Assembly (NCBI GenBank): GCA_022827405.1
Contig: JAJDTA010000042.1
Coordinates: forward strand, 1-56,523
DNA length: 56,523 nucleotides
Direction: 5' to 3'
DNA from: Acidimicrobiia bacterium
Lineage (GTDB): Bacteria > Actinomycetota > Acidimicrobiia > Acidimicrobiales > Bin134
Shown here: positions 9,512-34,330 of the stretch, piece by piece
Numbering within the stretch: the first letter of the stretch is position 1
How the letters are laid out: each line of letters opens with the position of its first letter
Notes under the pieces: model-generated
What the model was told of the DNA's origin: nothing
Databases searched by the model: none
The model's input: the letters and a program-made list of their open reading frames with translations, nothing else
Made by a program: the position numbers and the translations under genes

Positions 9512-11028
9512 GCCAGGGAGCCAGCCAACCGCAGCGGGCGTTGGTGTCGGTGTACGACAAGACCGGGGTGATCGATCTGGCCCAGGGGCTGGTGGCGCTG
9601 GGGTGGGAGATCATCTCCAGCGGGGGAACCTCCCGGGCCCTGGCCGAAGCCGGGATCCCGGTGACCCCCGTCGAAGAAGTCACCGGCGCGCCCGAGATGA
9701 TGGACGGCCGGGTCAAGACCGTCCACCCCGCAATCCACGGGGGCCTGCTGGCCGACCTGTCCAACCCCGGCCATGTGCAGGATCTGGCCGACCGGGGCAT
9801 CGTCCCCATCAATCTGGTGGTGAGCAACCTCTACCCATTCCGCTCCGATCCATCGGTGGAGCAGATCGACATCGGAGGACCGGCCATGGTCCGGGCCGCA
9901 GCCAAGAACCACGAGCGGGTGGGCGTGGTGGTGCGGCCCGACGACTACCCAGCAGTGCTCGCCGAGTTGGAAGCCGATGGCGGGTTGTCGGATGCCACCC
10001 GGCGGCGGCTGGCCCGCATCGCGTTCACCCACACCAGCGCCTACGACGCGGCCATAACCGACTGGCTGTCAGACGCCGATGACGAGCCGCTTCCCCCCAC
10101 CGTGGCGCTGACACTGGAGCGCCAAGAGGTGCTGCGCTACGGGGAGAACCCTCACCAAGTCGGCGCCCGCTATCGCATCGCCGGTCAGTCGAGCTGGTGG
10201 GACGAAGCGCAACAGCTCCAGGGCAAGGCCATGTCGTACCTCAACGTGTTCGACGCCGACGCCGCCTGGCGGCTGGCCCATTCGCTGGGCGATGACCCGG
10301 CCGCTGCGGTGATCAAGCACGCCAACCCCTGCGGAGCGGCCGTGGCCGACGACATCGCCACCGCCTACAGGCGGGCCCACGAGTGTGACCCGGTCTCGGC
10401 CTTCGGGGGGATTGTGGCTGTGAACCGCCCGGTGACCGCCGAGATGGCCGAGGCCATGGCCGAGGTGTTCACCGAGGTGCTCATCGCTCCCCAATACGAC
10501 GAAGCCGCGCTTGCCCTGCTGGCCAAGAAGAAGAACCTGAGGGTGCTCCACGCACCACCCCCCGAAGCTGCCGAGTTGGAGGTCCGCACCCTCGGCGGCG
10601 GCGCCCTAGTGCAGACCCCTGACACCGTTACCATCGACCGCGCAGCCTGGCAGGTGGTCACCGAGCGGGCCCCCACCACTGAGCAGTGGGCCGACCTCGA
10701 GCTGGCCTGGCGGGTGGCGGCCCGGGTGGGATCCAACTGCATCGTGCTGGCCAACAACCGCCAGGCGGTGGGCATCGGCGCCGGCCAGCAAAACCGCCGC
10801 GACGCCGGTCGCATCGCCGCCGAGAAGGCCGCCGGTCGAGCCGCCGGCGGGGCCTGCGCCAGCGATGCCTTCTTCCCGTTCCGCGACGGCCTTGACGCCG
10901 CCGCCGAAGCCCAATGCGCCACCGTCATCCAACCCGGCGGCTCAGTACGCGACCAAGAAGTAATCGACGCCGCCAACGAGCACAAAATGGCCATGGTCTT
11001 CACCGCCGAACGCCACTTCCGCCACTAG
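9508..11028 (+). CDS. purH: Bifunctional AICAR transformylase/IMP cyclohydrolase
   Basis: Catalyses the last two steps of IMP synthesis; 506 residues. The N-terminal MGS-like cyclohydrolase domain (about 1-195) has ALVSVYDKTG, SSGGTSRAL and DGRVKTVHPAIHGG. The transformylase domain has LRYGENPHQ and VIKHANPCG, which carries the catalytic Lys-His pair. SDAFFPFRDGLD near the C-terminus is also typical. Its TAG stop lies in a CTAG that also serves as the stop of convergent metF. Confidence 0.97.
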   Translation: MSQGASQPQRALVSVYDKTGVIDLAQGLVALGWEIISSGGTSRALAEAGIPVTPVEEVTGAPEMMDGRVKTVHPAIHGGLLADLSNPGHVQDLADRGIVPINLVVSNLYPFRSDPSVEQIDIGGPAMVRAAAKNHERVGVVVRPDDYPAVLAELEADGGLSDATRRRLARIAFTHTSAYDAAITDWLSDADDEPLPPTVALTLERQEVLRYGENPHQVGARYRIAGQSSWWDEAQQLQGKAMSYLNVFDADAAWRLAHSLGDDPAAAVIKHANPCGAAVADDIATAYRRAHECDPVSAFGGIVAVNRPVTAEMAEAMAEVFTEVLIAPQYDEAALALLAKKKNLRVLHAPPPEAAELEVRTLGGGALVQTPDTVTIDRAAWQVVTERAPTTEQWADLELAWRVAARVGSNCIVLANNRQAVGIGAGQQNRRDAGRIAAEKAAGRAAGGACASDAFFPFRDGLDAAAEAQCATVIQPGGSVRDQEVIDAANEHKMAMVFTAERHFRH

Positions 11029-23417: not shown

Positions 23418-26103
<2,686 letters not shown>

Positions 26104-26104
<1 letters not shown>

Positions 26105-26907
26105 CAGTGCTCCTCCCCTTCGGCGGCTCCGTGTTGTTGGAGCTCCTCCACGACCGAGCGGCCGTTGTCGTCGATCACCCCGGCCTGCACGAAGATCGGA
26201 AAGCTCAAATTTCCCACCAGGATGATCCCGGCCAGTCCGGCGGCCAGGTAGCGGCGCAGGTGGTTGTAGCGGGGGCTGTTGATTCCCAGGCTCTGGAACA
26301 TGCTCCAGGTGCCGTGGAAGATGTGGACGGCCAGGGCGGTGTTGGCCACGATGTACAGGATCGCCACTGGGATGCTGCCCAGGCTCTCCGAAACGTTGTG
26401 GTAGGGGTCGCCCCTAACGAAGTCGGGGTTGAACCAGCCCCAGGTGAGATCGGCCAGGTGGTAGAAGAGGTAAAGCCCGATGATGGGGCCGGTCCACCGC
26501 ATGGTGCGGGAGGCGAAGTTGGCCGCGATGTAGTTCCTGCCGCCGGGGTAGCGCTGGTCGGCGGCCAGGCTCATCCGGCTCAGGGAGTAGGCCGAGTGGA
26601 TGTGCAGGGCGAAGGCCAGGATCAGCCCGATGCGCATGATCCACAGCAGCCAGGTGCGGGGGAGGAGCTTGGTGCCCAGATCCCGCAGGGTCTCGGCGTA
26701 TTCGTGGATCTCCAGCGGCCCCTCGTAGAGATGGAGATTGCCGATCATGTGGACCACGATGAATCCCAGCAGCGCGATCCCGGTGAGACCCATCACCCAC
26801 TTCTTGCCCACCTCGGTCTGGTAGATGCTGAGCGGCCACGGGAGCCTCACCTTGGACTCCGACCGCACCGGCGGCGGCGTGCTCACTCTCGTCATGGATT
26901 GGACCAT
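26104..26907 (-). CDS. sdhC: Succinate dehydrogenase cytochrome b subunit (B-type)
   Basis: A 267-residue membrane anchor with about five hydrophobic helices, the first following [16 protein letters not shown]. Histidines in [29 protein letters not shown] and [11 protein letters not shown] are placed as expected for two heme b ligand sets. One long subunit in place of SdhC plus SdhD defines the B-type enzyme. It is the first gene of the operon. The GTG start at 26907 leaves 107 bp to the glycosidase-like gene. Confidence 0.92.
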
Positions 26908-27014
26908 CGGTTGCCTCCGCTCCAGGCCACCGGCAGCCCAGAACCTTCACGCCGACGGTACCGGCGCCCCACCCCCTGCGACTAGCCGAACCGGGGCATC
27001 AGCCAGCATGCGTG

Positions 27015-29117
27015 CTAGCTGAAGATGACCGCGTCGTAGCGGTTGGCGGCTTCCATGGGGCCGGTGAGTTGCAAGTGGAGGGCGGCGGGGCCGGAGGCAT
27101 CGGGAACTCTCCAGTTGATGATTCCCACCATCACGCATTCGTCTGAGCCCACTGCTCCGACCCAGCTCCAGGTTTGGCTGCCGCCGGGCCACTCGAGGGT
27201 GGCCTCCACCTGGAGTCCGGCCACCGGTTCTTGGCGGTCGCTCACCACGTGGACGCCTATCTCCAACTCGTCGCCGGAGGTCAACTCGGCGGCCAGCCGG
27301 TCAGCCACCACGATGACCGGCTGGCAGGCCCTGGCCAGGGCCTCGTAGGCCGGTTTGGGCCACCGCTGCCAGTCGAGCAGCGCAGTGGACACCGCAGGGT
27401 GGGAGTCGGCGAAGAAGTGCTGGCAGAATCCGGCTGCGGGCCGATACTTGAGCCGTCTCAGGGTTTCGATATGACGTCGCACCAGCATGGCCTGGTAGCC
27501 CCACGCCGCCTGCTGCCATTCCTCCAGGGTGGTGTGGTCGCGGGGCGGGACGTGGCGGTTCATGGCGGTAGCATCCAGCCCGTGGTCGCGGGCCAGTCGG
27601 GCCCAATCCAGGTCGGGCCACGTCTGCGGGCAGAGCAACGGCAGCCCCTTGGGCGGAGACTGGGCGCCGAACTGCGACACGAAGCGGACGGCCCGAGGCC
27701 AGCGGGCGGCGAGTTGCTCCAGATCCCTTTCGGAACCCCGATTCCAGCCCAGCCTCAGGTGGGTGTCGGTTCCGTCTAGGCGAGGCAGGTGGGGGAGCAC
27801 TCCGGAATAGGCCAACACTGGACGGGTGGGGTCTCGCCGCTCAATCTCCCGCTTGATGCTCCGATCCAGCACCGACAGGTTCCAACTCGGCCGCTGGTGA
27901 GACGCTAGGCGTCGGGCCATGCCGGGGGGACTCTCACTTGTTTGATTGGCGCTGTCGCCCAAGGGGTCGACATGTCCGCACCACAGCATCACGCTGGGGT
28001 GGGCACCCACTGTGCCGACGGCCGACTGGGCGCATTCGGTGGCCGCGTTTCGGCTGCCTTGGGGGAACGGACCCACCAGGGGGAGGTCTTGCCAGATCAG
28101 CATCCCAGCGTCGTCGGCCGCGTCGTACAGAGCAGGCGGGGCGACATGGCCGTACAACCGGATCAGATCGAGTCCCGCTTCTTTGGCCAACTCCACGTCG
28201 CGGCGCAGGCTGTCGGCGTCCACCTCGGCCCACCACGGGGAGGAGGGGCCGAAGCTGGTGCCTTTCAGGAACATCCTGACGCCGTTGATCGAAAACTGCC
28301 ACCGGTTCATTTCCACGGTTCGCAATCCGGTGCGCACCCGCCGTCGGTCGCTCAGCCCCCCTTGAGTGGTGCCCACTTCTACGGTGATGTCGTAGAGGGG
28401 TTGGTCACCCAACCGGTGGGGCCACCACCGGCGGGGTTCGGGCACTGTTACTCGCCACTCCACATGATTGAGCCCCGCGGCCAGCACATGATCGTCGGTG
28501 TGCTCCACCTCGCCCACGGTGGTGTGAAGGCGCACGAGGCCCGCTCGAGAAGCATCCAAATCGGCCTGCAAGGCCACCACTGCCCGTCGTTCGGAGGCGC
28601 CGAAGGTACCCACTCGCAGATCCAGAATTCGGATCTCCCCGGTGCTTTCCACCCTGACCGGCGCCCATAGCCCACCCGGATTGCCCGGCGGCAGCAGCTC
28701 CGGCGCCTGCCCCAGCGATCCCAGCATGTGGCTCCCGGAAATGTCCGACGAGCGGAACGGACACGACACCTCCAAGGCCAGCAGGTGCTCGCGCTGTCCG
28801 GCCATGGTCTCGGTCACGTCGAACTGGTGGGCCATGAAGTAGCCCTCCACGTCGCCCAGGTAGCCGCCATTCAGCCATACGTCGGCCTGATACAGCAGCC
28901 CTTCGAACACCAGCCACCGACGCTCACCCGCCGCCGGAGGCTGCTGGCTGAAGCGATGCCGATACCGCACCGAAGTCTCAGCGCCCAGCTCCGGAACCCG
29001 TCCCCAATGCCCCGGCACCGCCACCGGAACCCAGCCTGAGTCGTCAAACCCCTCATCAGGAAACCCCAGAAGGGCCTCGCCCCCCGGAGCCGCCACCCAT
29101 CTCCCGCCTAGGTCCAC
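27015..29117 (-). CDS. GH2 (beta-mannosidase-like) homologue, probably catalytically inactive
   Basis: A 700-residue protein with the GH2 layout: an N-terminal jelly-roll (about 1-170, with FEGLLYQADVWLNGGYLGD), an immunoglobulin-like domain, a TIM barrel from about 275 (NGVRMFLKGTSFGP), and a C-terminal beta region. Catalytic residues look lost. Where active enzymes have HPSxxxWCGNNE, this one has HPSVMLWCGHVDP (Asp384 in place of the acid/base Glu). Where they have the nucleophile in SEFGFQS, it has VSQFGAQS (Gln482). No signal peptide is seen, so it is probably cytoplasmic. It is transcribed away from the MoxR ATPase gene with 31 bp between starts. Inference: a carbohydrate-binding or structural role. 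Confidence 0.85.
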   Translation of the reverse strand: MDLGGRWVAAPGGEALLGFPDEGFDDSGWVPVAVPGHWGRVPELGAETSVRYRHRFSQQPPAAGERRWLVFEGLLYQADVWLNGGYLGDVEGYFMAHQFDVTETMAGQREHLLALEVSCPFRSSDISGSHMLGSLGQAPELLPPGNPGGLWAPVRVESTGEIRILDLRVGTFGASERRAVVALQADLDASRAGLVRLHTTVGEVEHTDDHVLAAGLNHVEWRVTVPEPRRWWPHRLGDQPLYDITVEVGTTQGGLSDRRRVRTGLRTVEMNRWQFSINGVRMFLKGTSFGPSSPWWAEVDADSLRRDVELAKEAGLDLIRLYGHVAPPALYDAADDAGMLIWQDLPLVGPFPQGSRNAATECAQSAVGTVGAHPSVMLWCGHVDPLGDSANQTSESPPGMARRLASHQRPSWNLSVLDRSIKREIERRDPTRPVLAYSGVLPHLPRLDGTDTHLRLGWNRGSERDLEQLAARWPRAVRFVSQFGAQSPPKGLPLLCPQTWPDLDWARLARDHGLDATAMNRHVPPRDHTTLEEWQQAAWGYQAMLVRRHIETLRRLKYRPAAGFCQHFFADSHPAVSTALLDWQRWPKPAYEALARACQPVIVVADRLAAELTSGDELEIGVHVVSDRQEPVAGLQVEATLEWPGGSQTWSWVGAVGSDECVMVGIINWRVPDASGPAALHLQLTGPMEAANRYDAVIFS

Positions 29118-29148
29118 CTGCTTAATCTATGGGCTAGGTTTCTCACCT

Positions 29149-30558
29149 ATGTCTCAACCCTCCACCCTCGGCGAGCTACGAGAATCCGGCTGGCAGTCGG
29201 TATCGGTCAAGCAAGAGATCCGTCGCAACGCGATCCAACGGATTCGAGCCGGCGAAGACCTGTTCCCCGGCATCTGGGGCTACGACGACACCGTCATCCC
29301 CCAACTGGAGACGGCGCTATTGGCTGGCCACGACATCATCTTTTTGGGTGAGCGGGGCCAGGCAAAGACCCGGATGATCCGCCTGGTGCTCGAATTGCTC
29401 GACGAGTGGATGCCGATTGTGGCTGGTTCCGAGGTGAACGACGACCCCGACAACCCGGTGTCCAAGCACGCCAAGGATCTGATCGCCGCCGAGGGTGACA
29501 ACACGCCGATCTCATGGGTCCATCGCAGTGAGCGCTACGGGGAGAAGCTGGCCACCCCCGATACCTCGATTGCCGATCTAATCGGTGAGGTGGACCCCAT
29601 CAAGGTGGCCGAGGGCCGGTACCTGTCCGACGAGCTGACCATCCACTACGGCCTGGTGCCCCGCACCAACCGGGGGGTGTTCGCCATCAACGAGCTGCCC
29701 GATCTGGCCGAGCGCATTCAGGTGGGGTTGCTCAACGTGCTGGAGGAGCGGGACGTGCAGATCCGGGGCCACAAGATCCGCTTGCCCCTCGACATCTTGT
29801 TGTTCGCGTCGGCCAACCCCGAGGACTACACCAACCGGGGCCGCATCATCACCCCGCTCAAAGACCGCTTCGGTGCCCAGATCCGCACCCACTATCCGAC
29901 TGACGTGGACATTGAGCTGGACATCACCGAGCAGGAGGCGACCGTACCCGAAGCCGACGTGCTGGTGACGATGCCGGACTTCATGAGCGAGGTGCTGGTG
30001 TATCTCAGTTTCTTGGCCCGACAGAGCCCCCATATCAACCAGCGATCGGGGGTGTCGGTGCGGTTGACGGTGTCCAACTACGAGACGCTGGCCGCAGCCG
30101 CCATCCGGCGAGCGCTTCGTACGGGCGAGGTCGTCGCGGTGCCCCGGGTGACCGACTTGGACGCGCTTACCCCGTCCACCCTGGGCAAGATCGAGATCGA
30201 GACCATTGAGGACGACCGCGATGCCGAGATCCTGGGCAACCTCCGCAAGGAGGCTGTCCGTCAAACCTTCAGAGACGCGGTCGACCATGAGGTGCAACAG
30301 CAGGTGATCGATGCCTTCGAGGAAGGTCGAGTGGTCAACGCCGGTGATGACATCTCCTCGGCCGACTATGCCGCCCTCGTGGACGAGGTGCCCGCCTTCG
30401 CCAGCGCGCTGGCCGCGCTGGGCTACGAGCCCGGCGATCTGGAAAACCCCGCGCTAGTGGCCAGCGGCATCGAGTTCGTGCTGGAAGGCCTCCACCTCTC
30501 CAAACGCCTCAATAAGGAATCCCTAGCCGGCGCTGCCGTCTACCGCGGCAGAACCTGA
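29149..30558 (+). CDS. MoxR/magnesium-chelatase-I-type AAA ATPase
   Basis: A 469-residue AAA+ ATPase. Walker A is GERGQAKT (residues 67-74), Walker B VFAINEL (177-183), sensor 1 LFASANPED (about 219-226) and an arginine-finger region RIITPLKDRF. It resembles BchI/ChlI but lies with no tetrapyrrole genes, so a MoxR-like role is more likely: remodelling a protein complex or inserting a cofactor together with a VWA partner (31796-33895). I recall a homologous pair in mycobacteria, Rv0958/Rv0959, in the same wider neighbourhood as sucCD and purNH. Here the pair is split by an opposite-strand gene whose 3' end overlaps this one by 19 bp. Confidence 0.87.
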   Translation: MSQPSTLGELRESGWQSVSVKQEIRRNAIQRIRAGEDLFPGIWGYDDTVIPQLETALLAGHDIIFLGERGQAKTRMIRLVLELLDEWMPIVAGSEVNDDPDNPVSKHAKDLIAAEGDNTPISWVHRSERYGEKLATPDTSIADLIGEVDPIKVAEGRYLSDELTIHYGLVPRTNRGVFAINELPDLAERIQVGLLNVLEERDVQIRGHKIRLPLDILLFASANPEDYTNRGRIITPLKDRFGAQIRTHYPTDVDIELDITEQEATVPEADVLVTMPDFMSEVLVYLSFLARQSPHINQRSGVSVRLTVSNYETLAAAAIRRALRTGEVVAVPRVTDLDALTPSTLGKIEIETIEDDRDAEILGNLRKEAVRQTFRDAVDHEVQQQVIDAFEEGRVVNAGDDISSADYAALVDEVPAFASALAALGYEPGDLENPALVASGIEFVLEGLHLSKRLNKESLAGAAVYRGRT

Positions 30559-31772
30559 TCGGCCTCGATTCCCCGGATGCGGTCGCGCAGGGTGAGGGCG
30601 GCGTCTTTGGGGTTGCGGTCTCGGTCGAATAGGCCTCGGGCGGTTGACCTTCCCAGGTGCCAGTGGTAGCCGTCAACGGCGGTGTCGGCGAAGAACCCCA
30701 CCACGTTGATGCCGTCGGATCTGGCGGCCTCCACCTGATCTAGCGTTCGGCCCAAGAGCTGATCGCGCCAGGTCTCGTCGGTGGTGGACGCGCCGGTGCC
30801 GGCCACCGCCAGCGACACATCGCCCAGCATGTCGGCCAGGCGGGCCAGCGCCCGGCCCAACTCCTCGGGCTCGGGGGCCAAGCCGGAGTCGTCGCATCGG
30901 GCGGTAGCGGGATACGGCCCGAGGTGGCCGTGTTGGTTTACTGAAACCGGAGCGTCGAAGCACATGCCCACCACGTCGATGGCGTCTCGGAACTCCTCAC
31001 GGGCGACTATCGGGCGATCGGGCACGGTGATCTCCCCGTCGGTCAGAGCTGAGGTCCAGCTCTGCCACAGCAGGCGGTCCCACCACCCCTGCCAAGCGAG
31101 GGAGTCGGCCCGCTGATCAGCGGCAAATACGGTGTGGAGGCCGAACACCCCCATCACCGGCTGGCTCCCGCTGCGGAGCAGTCGGCAGGCCTCGAACATG
31201 GCCTCCAGCCCGTGCTGGGCCGCTTCCACGCCGTCGGCAAGACTGCGCCGGCCGGGAGGGCGCTGGGCCATGAGGCGGCTCCGCACCGCCCAGCCCACCG
31301 GGTCTTCCACGGGCACCCACCCGGCCACCCGGTCGGAGAACCACTCGCCGCAGCGGTCCACCCAGCGGGCCCACCACAGGGTTCGTCCCTGTCGGGTGCT
31401 CCAGCCGCCCTCGTCGTCGGCAAACCACCCCGGCAGGGTGGTGTTTTGGAGAACCAGCCAGGTTTGCAGTCCGGCGTCGCGGGCCGCGGCCAATACGTCC
31501 AGGTACCGGTCGATGGCGTCGCTGTCCAGCTTGCCGGGCTCGGGCTCCACCCGGGCCCACTCCACCGGGAGCCGGCAGTGGGTGAAGCCCCACTCGGCCA
31601 AGAGCGCCAGATCGGCCCGGAAGTCGATGCCGAACCCGCAGCCCTCGCCTGACCGGGGTGCGCGCCCCTCCCGCTCCCACACCGACCAGTCGGCCGCGGG
31701 GGCAACTCCCTCCAACGACACGGAGTCCGCGGTCCAGCCCCAAGCGAAATCAGGACCGGTATGGCCATCCAT
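30540..31772 (-). CDS. GH1 (beta-glucosidase-like) homologue, probably catalytically inactive
   Basis: A 410-residue GH1-type TIM barrel. FAWGWTADSVSLEG matches the GH1 N-terminal FxWGxATSAYQxEG block, and FTHCRLPVEWARVEP the FxxYRFSIxWxRxxP block. The C-terminal GFFADTAVDGYHWHLG and ARGLFDRDRNPKDAA correspond to the WSLLDNFEW and FGLxxVD...RxPK blocks. The acid/base motif TxNEP is PVEDP (Glu156-Asp157), and the nucleophile motif (I/V)TENGA is VAGTGA (Gly325). Both catalytic glutamates are therefore changed. It overlaps the AAA gene end by 19 bp and starts 23 bp from the divergent VWA gene, so it sits inside the MoxR/VWA pair. Confidence 0.85.
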   Translation of the reverse strand: MDGHTGPDFAWGWTADSVSLEGVAPAADWSVWEREGRAPRSGEGCGFGIDFRADLALLAEWGFTHCRLPVEWARVEPEPGKLDSDAIDRYLDVLAAARDAGLQTWLVLQNTTLPGWFADDEGGWSTRQGRTLWWARWVDRCGEWFSDRVAGWVPVEDPVGWAVRSRLMAQRPPGRRSLADGVEAAQHGLEAMFEACRLLRSGSQPVMGVFGLHTVFAADQRADSLAWQGWWDRLLWQSWTSALTDGEITVPDRPIVAREEFRDAIDVVGMCFDAPVSVNQHGHLGPYPATARCDDSGLAPEPEELGRALARLADMLGDVSLAVAGTGASTTDETWRDQLLGRTLDQVEAARSDGINVVGFFADTAVDGYHWHLGRSTARGLFDRDRNPKDAALTLRDRIRGIEADQVLPR

Positions 31773-31795
31773 CTCGTTCAGAGTAGGTTGGCGGG

Positions 31796-33895
31796 ATGCT
31801 TCGGAGATGGCGAAGAGGCCGCCGCCAGTCTGCTCATCGGGTGGCCTACTCCCGCTGGGATGGCACCCAGACCGGTTTCGATTTCTCCACCGCCGATCTG
31901 TTCTCCCAGATGAACGACGATCTCCTCTACCACGGCGACGTGAACGCCGCTTTGCGCCGGCTACTCCAACAGGGCTTCGACGTCGACGGCCAGCGGGTTC
32001 AGGGCCTGCGGGAAATGATGGAGCAGCTCCGCCAGAGACGCCAGGAGCGATTGGAGCAGCACGACCTCGGCGGGGTCTACGACGACATCGCCCAGGAGCT
32101 GCGTGACGTGATCGACATGGAGCGCGACGCGCTCGATGGCCTCGCCGCCGAGGCGGCCGAATCGGGCGACGAGCGTCGAGCGGCCATCACCGAAGAGACC
32201 GTGGACCAGCGCCGGTTCCAGCTCGACATGCTGCCCCCCGATCTGGCCGGACAGATCAAGGAGCTGGACAACTACCAGTTCACCTCTTCGGAGGCCCAGC
32301 AGCGGTTCGACGAGTTGGTGGAACAGCTCCGCCAGCAGCTCATGCAGAACTACGTCAACCAGATGACCGACGGCATGAACAACCTCTCCCCGGAGGATCT
32401 GGCTCGGGCCAAGGACATGATGGCCGAGCTGAACAGCCTGCTGGAGAAGCGCCAGATGGCTGACGAGCAGCTCCCCTCAGACATCGACGACCCGGCCGAG
32501 CGCAACCGGATGCTGGACGAGCGCCTCCAATCCGACTTCGACAGCTTCATGGAGCGCTTCGGCGACTTCTTCCCTGAGAACCCCCGCACGCTGAGTGAGC
32601 TGCTGGAGGTCATGGCCCGGCGCATGGCGGCCATGTCGGCCATGATGGCGTCGATGACGCCCGAGCAGCGGGCGCAGCTCCAAGGCTTGGCCGAGCAGTT
32701 GTTGCAGGACATGGACCTTCGCTGGCAGGTGGACCAGCTGTCCCAGAACCTCCAGGCCATGTTCCCCGATGCCGGTTGGGACCGGTCGTACGACTTCAGC
32801 GGGGCCGATCCCCTCGACTTCGCCTCGGCTGCCCAGATGATGCAGGAGCTGGGCGACTTGGACCAGCTCGACAATCTGCTGCGGGGGGCTAACAACCCGG
32901 GCGCTCTGGCCGAGGTGGACATCGACCGGGCCCGGGAGCTTCTGGGCGACGAGTCCGCCCAGAGCCTGGAGCAGATGGCCGATCTGGCCAAGCTGCTGGA
33001 AGAGGCTGGATTGATCGAGAATCGGGAGGGCCGCTTGGAGCTCACCCCCCGGGCCATCCGTCGGATCGGCCAGAACGCCCTGTCGGACCTATTCAAGAAA
33101 CTCCAGCAAGACAGAGTGGGCCAGCACGCCATGGAGATGTTCGGCGGGGGACACGAGCGGGAGTACCACACCAAGCCCTACGAGTTCGGCGACCCCTTCA
33201 ACCTGGACATCGAGCGGACCATCCGCAACGCCATCCAGCGCACCGGTGGCGGCACCCCGGTGGAGCTGTCGCCGGAGGACTTCGAGGTGGAGCGCACCGA
33301 GCACATCTTGCGATCTTCAACCGTGCTCATGCTCGACCTGTCGCTGTCGATGCCCATGAGGGACAACTTTTTACCGGCCAAGAAGGTGGCCATGGCCCTT
33401 CACTCGCTGATCAGCTCGCAATACCCCCGGGACTTCCTGGGCATCGTGGGGTTCAGCGAGGTCGCCCGGGAGGTCAAGCCCGAGCAACTTCCCGAGGTGT
33501 CGTGGGATTTCGTGTACGGCACCAACATGCAGCACGGGTTTATGCTGGCCCGCCAGATGCTGGCCCGCCACAGCGGCACCAAGCAGATCATCATGGTCAC
33601 CGACGGCGAGCCGACCGCCCATGTGGACGAGGACGGTCGACCCTTCTTCTCATACCCGCCGGCCCGGGCCACGGTGGACAAGACCCTGGAGCAGGTCATG
33701 CGGGCCACCCGGGAGGGGATACGCATCAACACTTTCATGCTGGATGCCACCTCGTACCTCACCAACTTCATCGAGCAGATCTCCAAGATGAACGGCGGCC
33801 GGGCCTTCTTCACCACCCCTGAGACCTTGGGCGACTACGTGCTGGTGGACTTCGTAGAGCACAAGCGAAAGTTGCTGGGCGCCCGTCGCCGCTGA
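31796..33895 (+). CDS. VWA-domain protein, partner of the MoxR-type ATPase
   Basis: A 699-residue protein. The first 500 residues are mostly charged helices rich in Gln, Glu, Arg and Met, and several stretches look like coiled coil. The C-terminal von Willebrand factor A domain has a MIDAS metal site: DLSLSM (about residue 515), GTNMQHG, and VTDGEPT. It resembles the D-subunit side of chelatase pairs and Rv0959-type proteins. With the AAA ATPase it probably forms a metal-dependent chaperone-like machine; the client is unknown. The first ATG is used, but the highly basic first 17 residues leave room for a later GTG start near 31841. Confidence 0.85.
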   Translation: MLRRWRRGRRQSAHRVAYSRWDGTQTGFDFSTADLFSQMNDDLLYHGDVNAALRRLLQQGFDVDGQRVQGLREMMEQLRQRRQERLEQHDLGGVYDDIAQELRDVIDMERDALDGLAAEAAESGDERRAAITEETVDQRRFQLDMLPPDLAGQIKELDNYQFTSSEAQQRFDELVEQLRQQLMQNYVNQMTDGMNNLSPEDLARAKDMMAELNSLLEKRQMADEQLPSDIDDPAERNRMLDERLQSDFDSFMERFGDFFPENPRTLSELLEVMARRMAAMSAMMASMTPEQRAQLQGLAEQLLQDMDLRWQVDQLSQNLQAMFPDAGWDRSYDFSGADPLDFASAAQMMQELGDLDQLDNLLRGANNPGALAEVDIDRARELLGDESAQSLEQMADLAKLLEEAGLIENREGRLELTPRAIRRIGQNALSDLFKKLQQDRVGQHAMEMFGGGHEREYHTKPYEFGDPFNLDIERTIRNAIQRTGGGTPVELSPEDFEVERTEHILRSSTVLMLDLSLSMPMRDNFLPAKKVAMALHSLISSQYPRDFLGIVGFSEVAREVKPEQLPEVSWDFVYGTNMQHGFMLARQMLARHSGTKQIIMVTDGEPTAHVDEDGRPFFSYPPARATVDKTLEQVMRATREGIRINTFMLDATSYLTNFIEQISKMNGGRAFFTTPETLGDYVLVDFVEHKRKLLGARRR

Positions 33896-33957: not shown

Positions 33958-34012
33958 TTGTTGAAATTACAAGCGAGTCGTTTCCGCGACCGAGCAATCC
34001 AGGAGGGGTGCT

Positions 34013-34330
34013 ATGAGACTGGTGGAGACAACTTCGAAGCAATCTGATGGGGGCGACGATGGCCGGGCGTGGCAAGCGCTGGCCAACTGCCTAGGGGTGG
34101 ACCCTGATCTGTTCTTCCCGGAACGGGGGGCGTCCACCCGAGAAGCCAAAGAGGTCTGCCGGGCTTGCGTGGTGCGTGAGGAGTGTTTGGAGTACGCCAT
34201 CGTAAACGGCGAGAAGTTCGGCATCTGGGGTGGCATGAGCGAGCGGGAGCGGCGCCGGGTCCGCCGGGCTCGGGGACTCACCCGAGTACGGGAACCGGTG
34301 ACCGCGGTGGCCGACAGCTCTGGCGCTTGA
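34013..34330 (+). CDS. WhiB-family iron-sulfur regulator (first copy)
   Basis: A 105-residue Wbl protein. Four cysteines (Cys26, Cys49, Cys52, Cys58, the last three in CRACVVREEC) are set to bind a [4Fe-4S] cluster. They are followed by the GIWGG turn (70-74) and a basic tail SERERRRVRRARG for DNA or sigma-factor contact. Wbl proteins work with the primary sigma factor and can sense redox or nitric oxide. AGGAGG lies before the ATG. tatA follows 54 bp later. The exact paralogue (WhiB1, 2 and so on) cannot be assigned. Confidence 0.93.
   Translation: MRLVETTSKQSDGGDDGRAWQALANCLGVDPDLFFPERGASTREAKEVCRACVVREECLEYAIVNGEKFGIWGGMSERERRRVRRARGLTRVREPVTAVADSSGA

Follow-up and report, generated by a model that had tools for sequence, protein, structure and literature searches.

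A MoxR-type AAA+ ATPase gene and the gene for its VWA-domain partner are interleaved with two glycosidase-like genes, of the GH2 and GH1 families, in the genome of an Acidimicrobiia bacterium (Acidimicrobiales; Bin134). The neighborhood is real and conserved, and a four-part system is plausible. The best-supported explanation is that the glycosidase-like (GH) proteins work with the AAA/VWA machine as non-catalytic partners, which gene linkage and the covariation of evolutionary distances bring close to an even chance. The genes lie in a window of 56,523 nucleotides (contig JAJDTA010000042.1, positions 1 to 56,523) of assembly GCA_022827405.1, which spans 3.77 Mb in 237 contigs at 95.67% completeness and 5.34% contamination. 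The class Acidimicrobiia comprises bacteria of soil and water. The four-gene order proposed in the initial annotation, together with the strands, the gaps of 31 bp (GH2/AAA) and 23 bp (GH1/VWA) between divergent starts and the 19-bp overlap of the AAA and GH1 3' ends, matches the open reading frame coordinates throughout. Loci and genomes compared with the window carry L- and G-numbers, respectively.

The AAA and VWA genes encode a MoxR-type AAA+/VWA couple. The AAA protein matches the Pfam families AAA_5 and Mg_chelatase above cut-off, and an alignment of 17 sequences, drawn from 80 loci plus the window, has invariant G67, R69, G70, Q71, K73 and E182, with the P-loop (GxxGxxK[TS]) and the Walker-B glutamate present. 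The Walker-B aspartate is replaced by asparagine (N181) in all 17 sequences. The VWA protein matched no NCBIfam family and reached 23.6 bits for Pfam VWA_2, below the cut-off of 27, and the VWA fold was then borne out by the structure model. Its metal ion-dependent adhesion site (MIDAS; DxSxS, T, D) is retained across 56 sequences, with D514, S516, S518 and T576 invariant and D603 kept in at least 90%. The top three Foldseek matches of the model are chain G of 9qhe, 9qh6 and 9qhg, which are NorQD complexes, with alignment confined to the VWA domain and template-modeling (TM) scores of 0.24-0.26 by query length. We take these chains to be NorD. Pfam for the AAA protein and the predicted structure for the VWA protein hence agree with the identities first assigned to the pair. 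Among loci with at least 6 kb of flank, VWA lies downstream of AAA on the same strand in 76 of 82 within the class and 23 of 29 outside it, counts that are not independent of synteny because class membership (of L202-L236, L252, L253, L260, L270 and L274) was set from titles, match rank and, for some loci, shared neighbors. The loci outside the class with this flank carry GH2 upstream in 0/28, GH1 downstream in 0/29 and sdh genes in 0/28. Since the pair stands there without GH genes, the latter look like class-specific additions to the MoxR/VWA couple.

Within the class, the arrangement is far from chance. GH2 lies upstream of AAA on the opposite strand in all 53 loci with both genes, and GH1 lies downstream on the opposite strand in all 24 loci with both genes once repeats were removed (L203 equals L128, L209 equals L137 and L212 equals L163). 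The arrangement recurs across many families of the order. A sample of 89 genomes of the order contains a close AAA in 77, a close GH2 in 43 and a close GH1 in 18, and the 77 AAA genomes include 41 with GH2, 18 with GH1 and 15 with both (cut-offs for close copies were about 1e-80 for GH2, 1e-30 for GH1, 1e-100 for AAA and 1e-60 for sdhA). The initial annotation had suggested surveying genomes for co-occurrence, and the survey found linkage of the GH genes kept through the order rather than lacking. Across 296 genomes sampled from the whole phylum, GH1 matches at or below 1e-30 occur in six, including the genome of the window, all in Acidimicrobiia. Four of the six are new to the comparison, and in two of them (G218 and G363) GH1 occupies the slot, with both catalytic glutamates kept in G218 and lost in G363. 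The genome G104, from another order of the class, has a GH1 copy with lost catalytic residues between AAA and VWA (L295, 9183-10583) and a second copy elsewhere with both glutamates kept (L296, 9199-10407). In G229, an intact GH1 sits on a contig of 7.9 kb that has no AAA; the AAA gene of this genome is on another contig. AAA is missing from the loci of three GH1 rows: L130 (G016) lies beside VWA, and L126 (G070) and L158 (G055) come from short contigs that carry no AAA or VWA. Within the genus of the window, close copies of the four genes are all missing from G035. The AAA and VWA genes of G085 sit on separate contigs, and that genome has no close copy of GH2 or GH1.

Evolutionary distances of the GH genes vary together with those of the AAA/VWA pair. 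We computed partial correlations given rpoB, using a permutation test that treats genomes as exchangeable. From 46 genomes with a close GH2 or GH1, 43 were searched for rpoB (not G025, G054 and G071), 38 had the gene and 37 were used, with G010 left out and one of the two G052 copies retained. AAA and VWA correlate at 0.54 (n=33). GH2 follows AAA (0.62, n=34) and VWA (0.58, n=30) and not the succinate dehydrogenase/fumarate reductase genes sdhA (0.10), sdhB (0.00) and sdhC (-0.14), even though sdhC is about as near to GH2 as AAA is. The three sdh genes correlate with one another at 0.63, 0.63 and 0.69. GH1 correlates with VWA at 0.63 (n=15), with AAA at 0.32 (n=16) and with GH2 at 0.58 (n=13). 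Omitting the rpoB control leaves the GH2 pattern unchanged, with GH2 following AAA and VWA and not sdh.

The GH1-like protein retains the fold of its family. Pfam PF00232 is matched at 69 bits (cut-off 22.6), and the structure model is a barrel with a mean predicted local distance difference test (pLDDT) score of 90.2 and, against the 50 GH1-type PDB rows shown, TM scores of 0.81-0.87 normalized by query length. Aligned with solved relatives, the protein has D157 at the acid/base and G325 at the nucleophile position, hence both catalytic glutamates are lost and the pseudoenzyme status first proposed for the window copy is upheld. Over 27 GH1 rows, six keep both glutamates, 17 lost both, three lost the nucleophile and one lost the acid/base. 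Aspartate occupies the acid/base position in 14 of the 27 rows, and the nucleophile is replaced by Gly, Ala, Ser or Phe. In a tree excluding the catalytic columns, 22 rows with one or both glutamates missing form a single clade (support 98/97). The G104 copy L295 is a further row of this kind and falls outside this clade, making two changes altogether. Intact rows unlinked to AAA/VWA (L158, L296 and L299) cluster together; two gappy rows, L022 and L023, were left out of the second GH1 tree. The sugar-pocket columns Q19, H109, N156, Y273, W301 and E370 (window numbering) are invariant in nine of nine intact rows. Among the 22 dead rows, none of these columns shows the same residue in a majority, and the positions that stay are mainly structural G/W/P/D.

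Judged from sequence comparisons, the dead GH1 clade is old and held by purifying selection. The closest named relative of the window by AAA is L202, an Acidimicrobiia metagenome-assembled genome at 92% identity. Nei-Gojobori estimates of the nonsynonymous to synonymous rate ratio (dN/dS) for this single pair give the dead GH1 a value of 0.097, compared with 0.089 for AAA and 0.045 for VWA. The similarity of the GH1 and AAA values argues for a selected pseudoenzyme and not decay. Another dead GH1 pair, L159/L206, has a ratio of 0.057 (AAA 0.034). GH2 estimates come from pairs other than the window, because L202 has no GH2 and no other close relative is available. The dead GH2 pair L205/L217 gives 0.199 (AAA 0.101) and the intact pair L179/L214 gives 0.215, while G016/G070 gives 0.105 for GH2 and 0.171 for GH1.

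The history of the GH2-like gene appears more labile. The protein matches Pfam PF22666 and PF00703 above cut-off and PF02837 below, and its best PDB matches are beta-mannosidases (6byg, 5n6u; E down to 2.6e-29). It resembles these enzymes in domains and differs in having aspartate (D384) at the acid/base and glutamine (Q482) at the nucleophile position, with both catalytic glutamates lost. The prediction of a GH2 pseudoenzyme consequently holds for the window protein and not for the slot in general, where 28 of 60 genomes or loci keep both glutamates, 14 lost both, 11 lost the nucleophile and seven lost the acid/base. The catalytic state changed at least 12 times on the GH2 tree (the fragment L161 was left out) and 14 times on the AAA tree, counts which cannot separate gain from loss. 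The GH2 copies of G054 and G071 (L282 and L283) have both lost the nucleophile glutamate.

The core of the proposed machine would be a MoxR AAA+/VWA remodeling pair, in which the ATPase forms a ring and the VWA partner brings the target, by homology with NorQ/NorD. In Acidimicrobiia, GH2 and GH1 glycosidases may have come to flank the AAA gene, and both would have lost catalysis in the lineage of the window. The GH1-like protein would then most likely be a non-catalytic partner of the AAA/VWA machine, either a client or a scaffold or adaptor presenting one. We infer physical contact, client identity and mode of action from these relationships, along with a cytosolic location, as crude hydropathy finds no transmembrane segment. 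A stronger version, which we regard as possible and rather doubtful, combines a MoxR/VWA chaperone and two glycosidase-fold ex-enzymes, now dedicated non-catalytic subunits, in one four-part machine; the conversion of GH1 would have taken place mainly once, in a deep ancestor, and that of GH2 repeatedly. Such a machine would be a bacterial, intracellular counterpart of Klotho-type scaffolds. Klotho is an animal co-receptor, a GH1-fold scaffold which works without hydrolysis as the extracellular part of a receptor. A Klotho structure, as a GH1-fold relative, is among the PDB matches of the window GH1-like protein, which differs in having no transmembrane segment by the same crude hydropathy. 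Known clients exist for only a part of the widespread MoxR/VWA pairs. A selected dead partner in a fixed slot beside such a pair is a concrete binding candidate, and the presence of active-looking and dead orthologs in one slot provides a natural series for the change from glycosidase to pseudoenzyme, L138 and L160 being examples of loci whose orthologs keep both glutamates.

Several observations weigh against a partnership of the GH proteins with the AAA/VWA machine. Neither GH gene is present in 33 of the 77 AAA genomes of the order, and class loci with at least 6 kb of flank carry GH2 in only 37/76 and GH1 in only 16/82. The proposal of one system of four genes is supported by conserved linkage and by the covariation of GH2 and GH1 with AAA/VWA, but the genes are not an obligate set. 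L202 lacks GH2 cleanly, with 2,152 bp of the window (26994-29145) facing 44 bp (9954-9997) between aligned flanks of 94% and 89% DNA identity. GH1 also covaries with sdhA (0.35) and sdhB (0.48) given rpoB, and without the control its correlations are 0.56, 0.43 and 0.42 with sdhA, sdhB and sdhC, against 0.39 with AAA and 0.34 with VWA. Correlations of 0.29-0.59 with AAA/VWA, without rpoB control, were found for FTCD, PPK and c16. The species signal is poorly controlled, because rpoB shows almost no correlation with AAA (-0.03) and a negative one with GH1 (-0.40). Losses in GH1 and GH2 are associated (Fisher p 0.011), and a phylogenetic pair test had no power owing to too few supported pairs. 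Distant dead pairs show higher dN/dS, with 0.484 for GH2, 0.440 for GH1 and 0.238 for AAA in L204/L221 and 0.313 for GH2 and 0.244 for AAA in L205/L221.

The main rival explanation is inertia of gene order, by which the block sdhCAB-GH2-AAA-GH1-VWA-WhiB passes down as a whole and the GH-like proteins serve functions unrelated to AAA/VWA. We consider this a tentative possibility with appreciable weight. The conserved block is broad, comprising sdhCAB, GH2, AAA, GH1 or another insert, VWA and WhiB, and where the flank of a class locus was long enough, sdhA diverges from AAA in 59/76 and WhiB follows VWA in 62/82. Because sdhCAB, WhiB and other neighbors are kept in the same block, part of the GH linkage may itself reflect inertia. 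The slot between AAA and VWA can also hold a MaoC-like (c26) or cyclase-like (c30) gene, and the covariation of FTCD, PPK and c16 fits the same explanation. GH2 shares the strand of sdhC in 43 of 45 rows in which sdhC was seen, at less than 300 bp in 38, and sits beside sdhC in two genomes without close AAA/VWA (G054 and G071) and one with AAA on another contig (G027). GH2 presence tracks window-type sdhA (36/43 versus 14/46) and, more weakly, AAA (41/43 versus 36/46), kinship not being controlled in either comparison; supported pairs were too few for a phylogenetic pair test of GH against sdh presence to decide. Against inertia, GH2 stays with AAA at two loci with inverted sdh (L183, L219) and at three with no sdh seen in the vicinity (L179, L190, L214), and its distances follow AAA and VWA and not the about equally near sdhC.

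The AAA/VWA pair could instead mature or regulate the divergently encoded succinate dehydrogenase (SDH)/fumarate reductase, with the GH proteins being incidental. RavA-ViaA, also a MoxR/VWA pair, is reported to associate with the fumarate reductase Frd and to modulate it (PMC10585395). The window pair is similarly located beside sdhCAB, and the frequent position of sdhA upstream of AAA in the class lends this precedent some weight. AAA covaries weakly with sdhA (0.22, p 0.016) and sdhB (0.22, p 0.045) given rpoB. However, all other AAA/VWA-sdh correlations are at most 0.16 (AAA-sdhC 0.10, VWA-sdhA 0.06, VWA-sdhC -0.01), leaving an SDH client little supported by distance covariation. Window-type sdhA is retained in four genomes that have no close AAA (G035, G054, G056 and G071), and the presence of AAA and window-type sdhA is not significantly associated (46/77 versus 4/12, p 0.12). 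The sdh link of the pair was seen only in this class, and the RavA-specific Pfam domain (C-terminal/LARA) is not among the AAA matches listed to E 0.1. Taken together, we view an SDH client as improbable.

Enzymes with changed chemistry on an intracellular substrate are a more remote explanation of the GH-like proteins, which we judge very unlikely. Aspartate at the acid/base position of many GH1 rows, D384/Q482 in the window GH2 and the retained TIM barrel of the GH1 model would be compatible with altered catalysis. The sugar pocket is nonetheless largely lost in the dead GH1 rows while structural positions stay, and the residues replacing the nucleophile are Gly, Ala, Ser or Phe. Decay into pseudogenes is the least probable explanation of all and is disfavored for GH1, since the precise absence of GH2 from the sister locus L202, its many changes of catalytic state and a dN/dS reaching 0.48 for one pair of dead GH2 genes are set against full-length, open frames in the window, ratios below 1 in all dead pairs tested (0.06-0.48) and a window GH1 value near that of AAA.

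Known systems resemble the window in parts. NorQ/NorD is the MoxR AAA+/VWA pair of nitric oxide reductase (PMC9976466). It is likewise encoded as a pair and provides the best matches of the VWA model, but only the VWA domain of the window protein aligns, and no nor gene is among those neighbors that were annotated. The closest solved sequence relatives of the AAA protein are of the magnesium chelatase ChlI type (8osf at E 1.8e-8, 6l8d and 1g8p), from which it departs in scoring 38 bits against the curated BchI-ChlI cut-off of 467. MoxR-vWA ternary conflict systems (VMAP and others) combine a MoxR/vWA core with a third component (PMC7159879). Unlike these systems, the window falls below the cut-off of PF20030 (bpMoxR), and PADLOC has no match for AAA or GH1 and two weak partial models for VWA. 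Glycosidase, glycosyl hydrolase and glycoside hydrolase do not occur as terms in the main text of PMC7159879. The window GH2 (27015-29117) does match the PADLOC model of a CARF/beta-galactosidase/LolE fusion over its GH2 part (E 1.6e-51). The structures closest to the window GH1 are 9u98 (E 8.5e-27) and 8kap (E 9.2e-26), with PMC12369401 as a related reference; the window protein differs in lacking both catalytic glutamates and most sugar-pocket residues. Literature searches on a combination of MoxR/VWA with glycosidase-like proteins turned up nothing within the searches made.

The two divergent start regions share a promoter-like box. TANNNT was found 4-9 nt before the candidate start of AAA in 86/99 loci, GH2 in 42/53, VWA in 50/86 and GH1 in 6/26, compared with 3/275, 0/117, 1/205 and 0/63 at control places inside the respective genes. 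Conservation of these boxes favors divergent, leaderless transcription of the GH2 and AAA genes. The window has TANNNT 6-8 nt upstream of all four starts, which plausibly form two back-to-back pairs of leaderless-type promoters.

Table 1. Features of the AAA/VWA neighborhood, in window coordinates.
Feature	Position	Strand	Remarks
GH2 (beta-mannosidase-like), 700 aa	27015..29117	-	acid/base E to D384, nucleophile E to Q482; predicted pseudoenzyme
Divergent start region, 31-bp	29118..29148		TANNNT 6 nt before GH2 GTG and 8 nt before AAA ATG; predicted leaderless-type promoters
MoxR/ChlI-type AAA+ ATPase, 469 aa	29149..30558	+	Walker A GERGQAKT; Walker-B region NELPDL
GH1-like pseudo-glycosidase, 410 aa	30540..31772	-	NEP to EDP; nucleophile motif to AGTG; TIM barrel in model
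Divergent start region, 23-bp	31773..31795		TANNNT 7 nt before GH1 ATG and 6 nt before VWA ATG
VWA-domain partner, 699 aa	31796..33895	+	N-terminal two thirds largely helical; C-terminal VWA about 503-699, MIDAS kept
sdhB, sdhA, sdhC (succinate dehydrogenase/fumarate reductase)	23418..26907	-	on the strand of GH2, just downstream of it; in conserved block
WhiB-family regulator	33965..34327	+	after VWA; in conserved block

Other loci carry different genes around the pair. Genes between AAA and VWA on the strand of GH1 include adenylate/guanylate-cyclase-like (c30) and MaoC-like (c26) genes, with L208 (11405-12001) and L204 (14232-15980) as examples of such inserts. The cluster c20 (L191, 11045-11896, and 13 other loci) lies upstream of and divergent from AAA and encodes proteins of about 290 aa with about four transmembrane segments by crude hydropathy. 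It occurs together with GH2 in 0/14 loci, and its member L231 has no Pfam match. The c20 protein may be another SDH membrane anchor.

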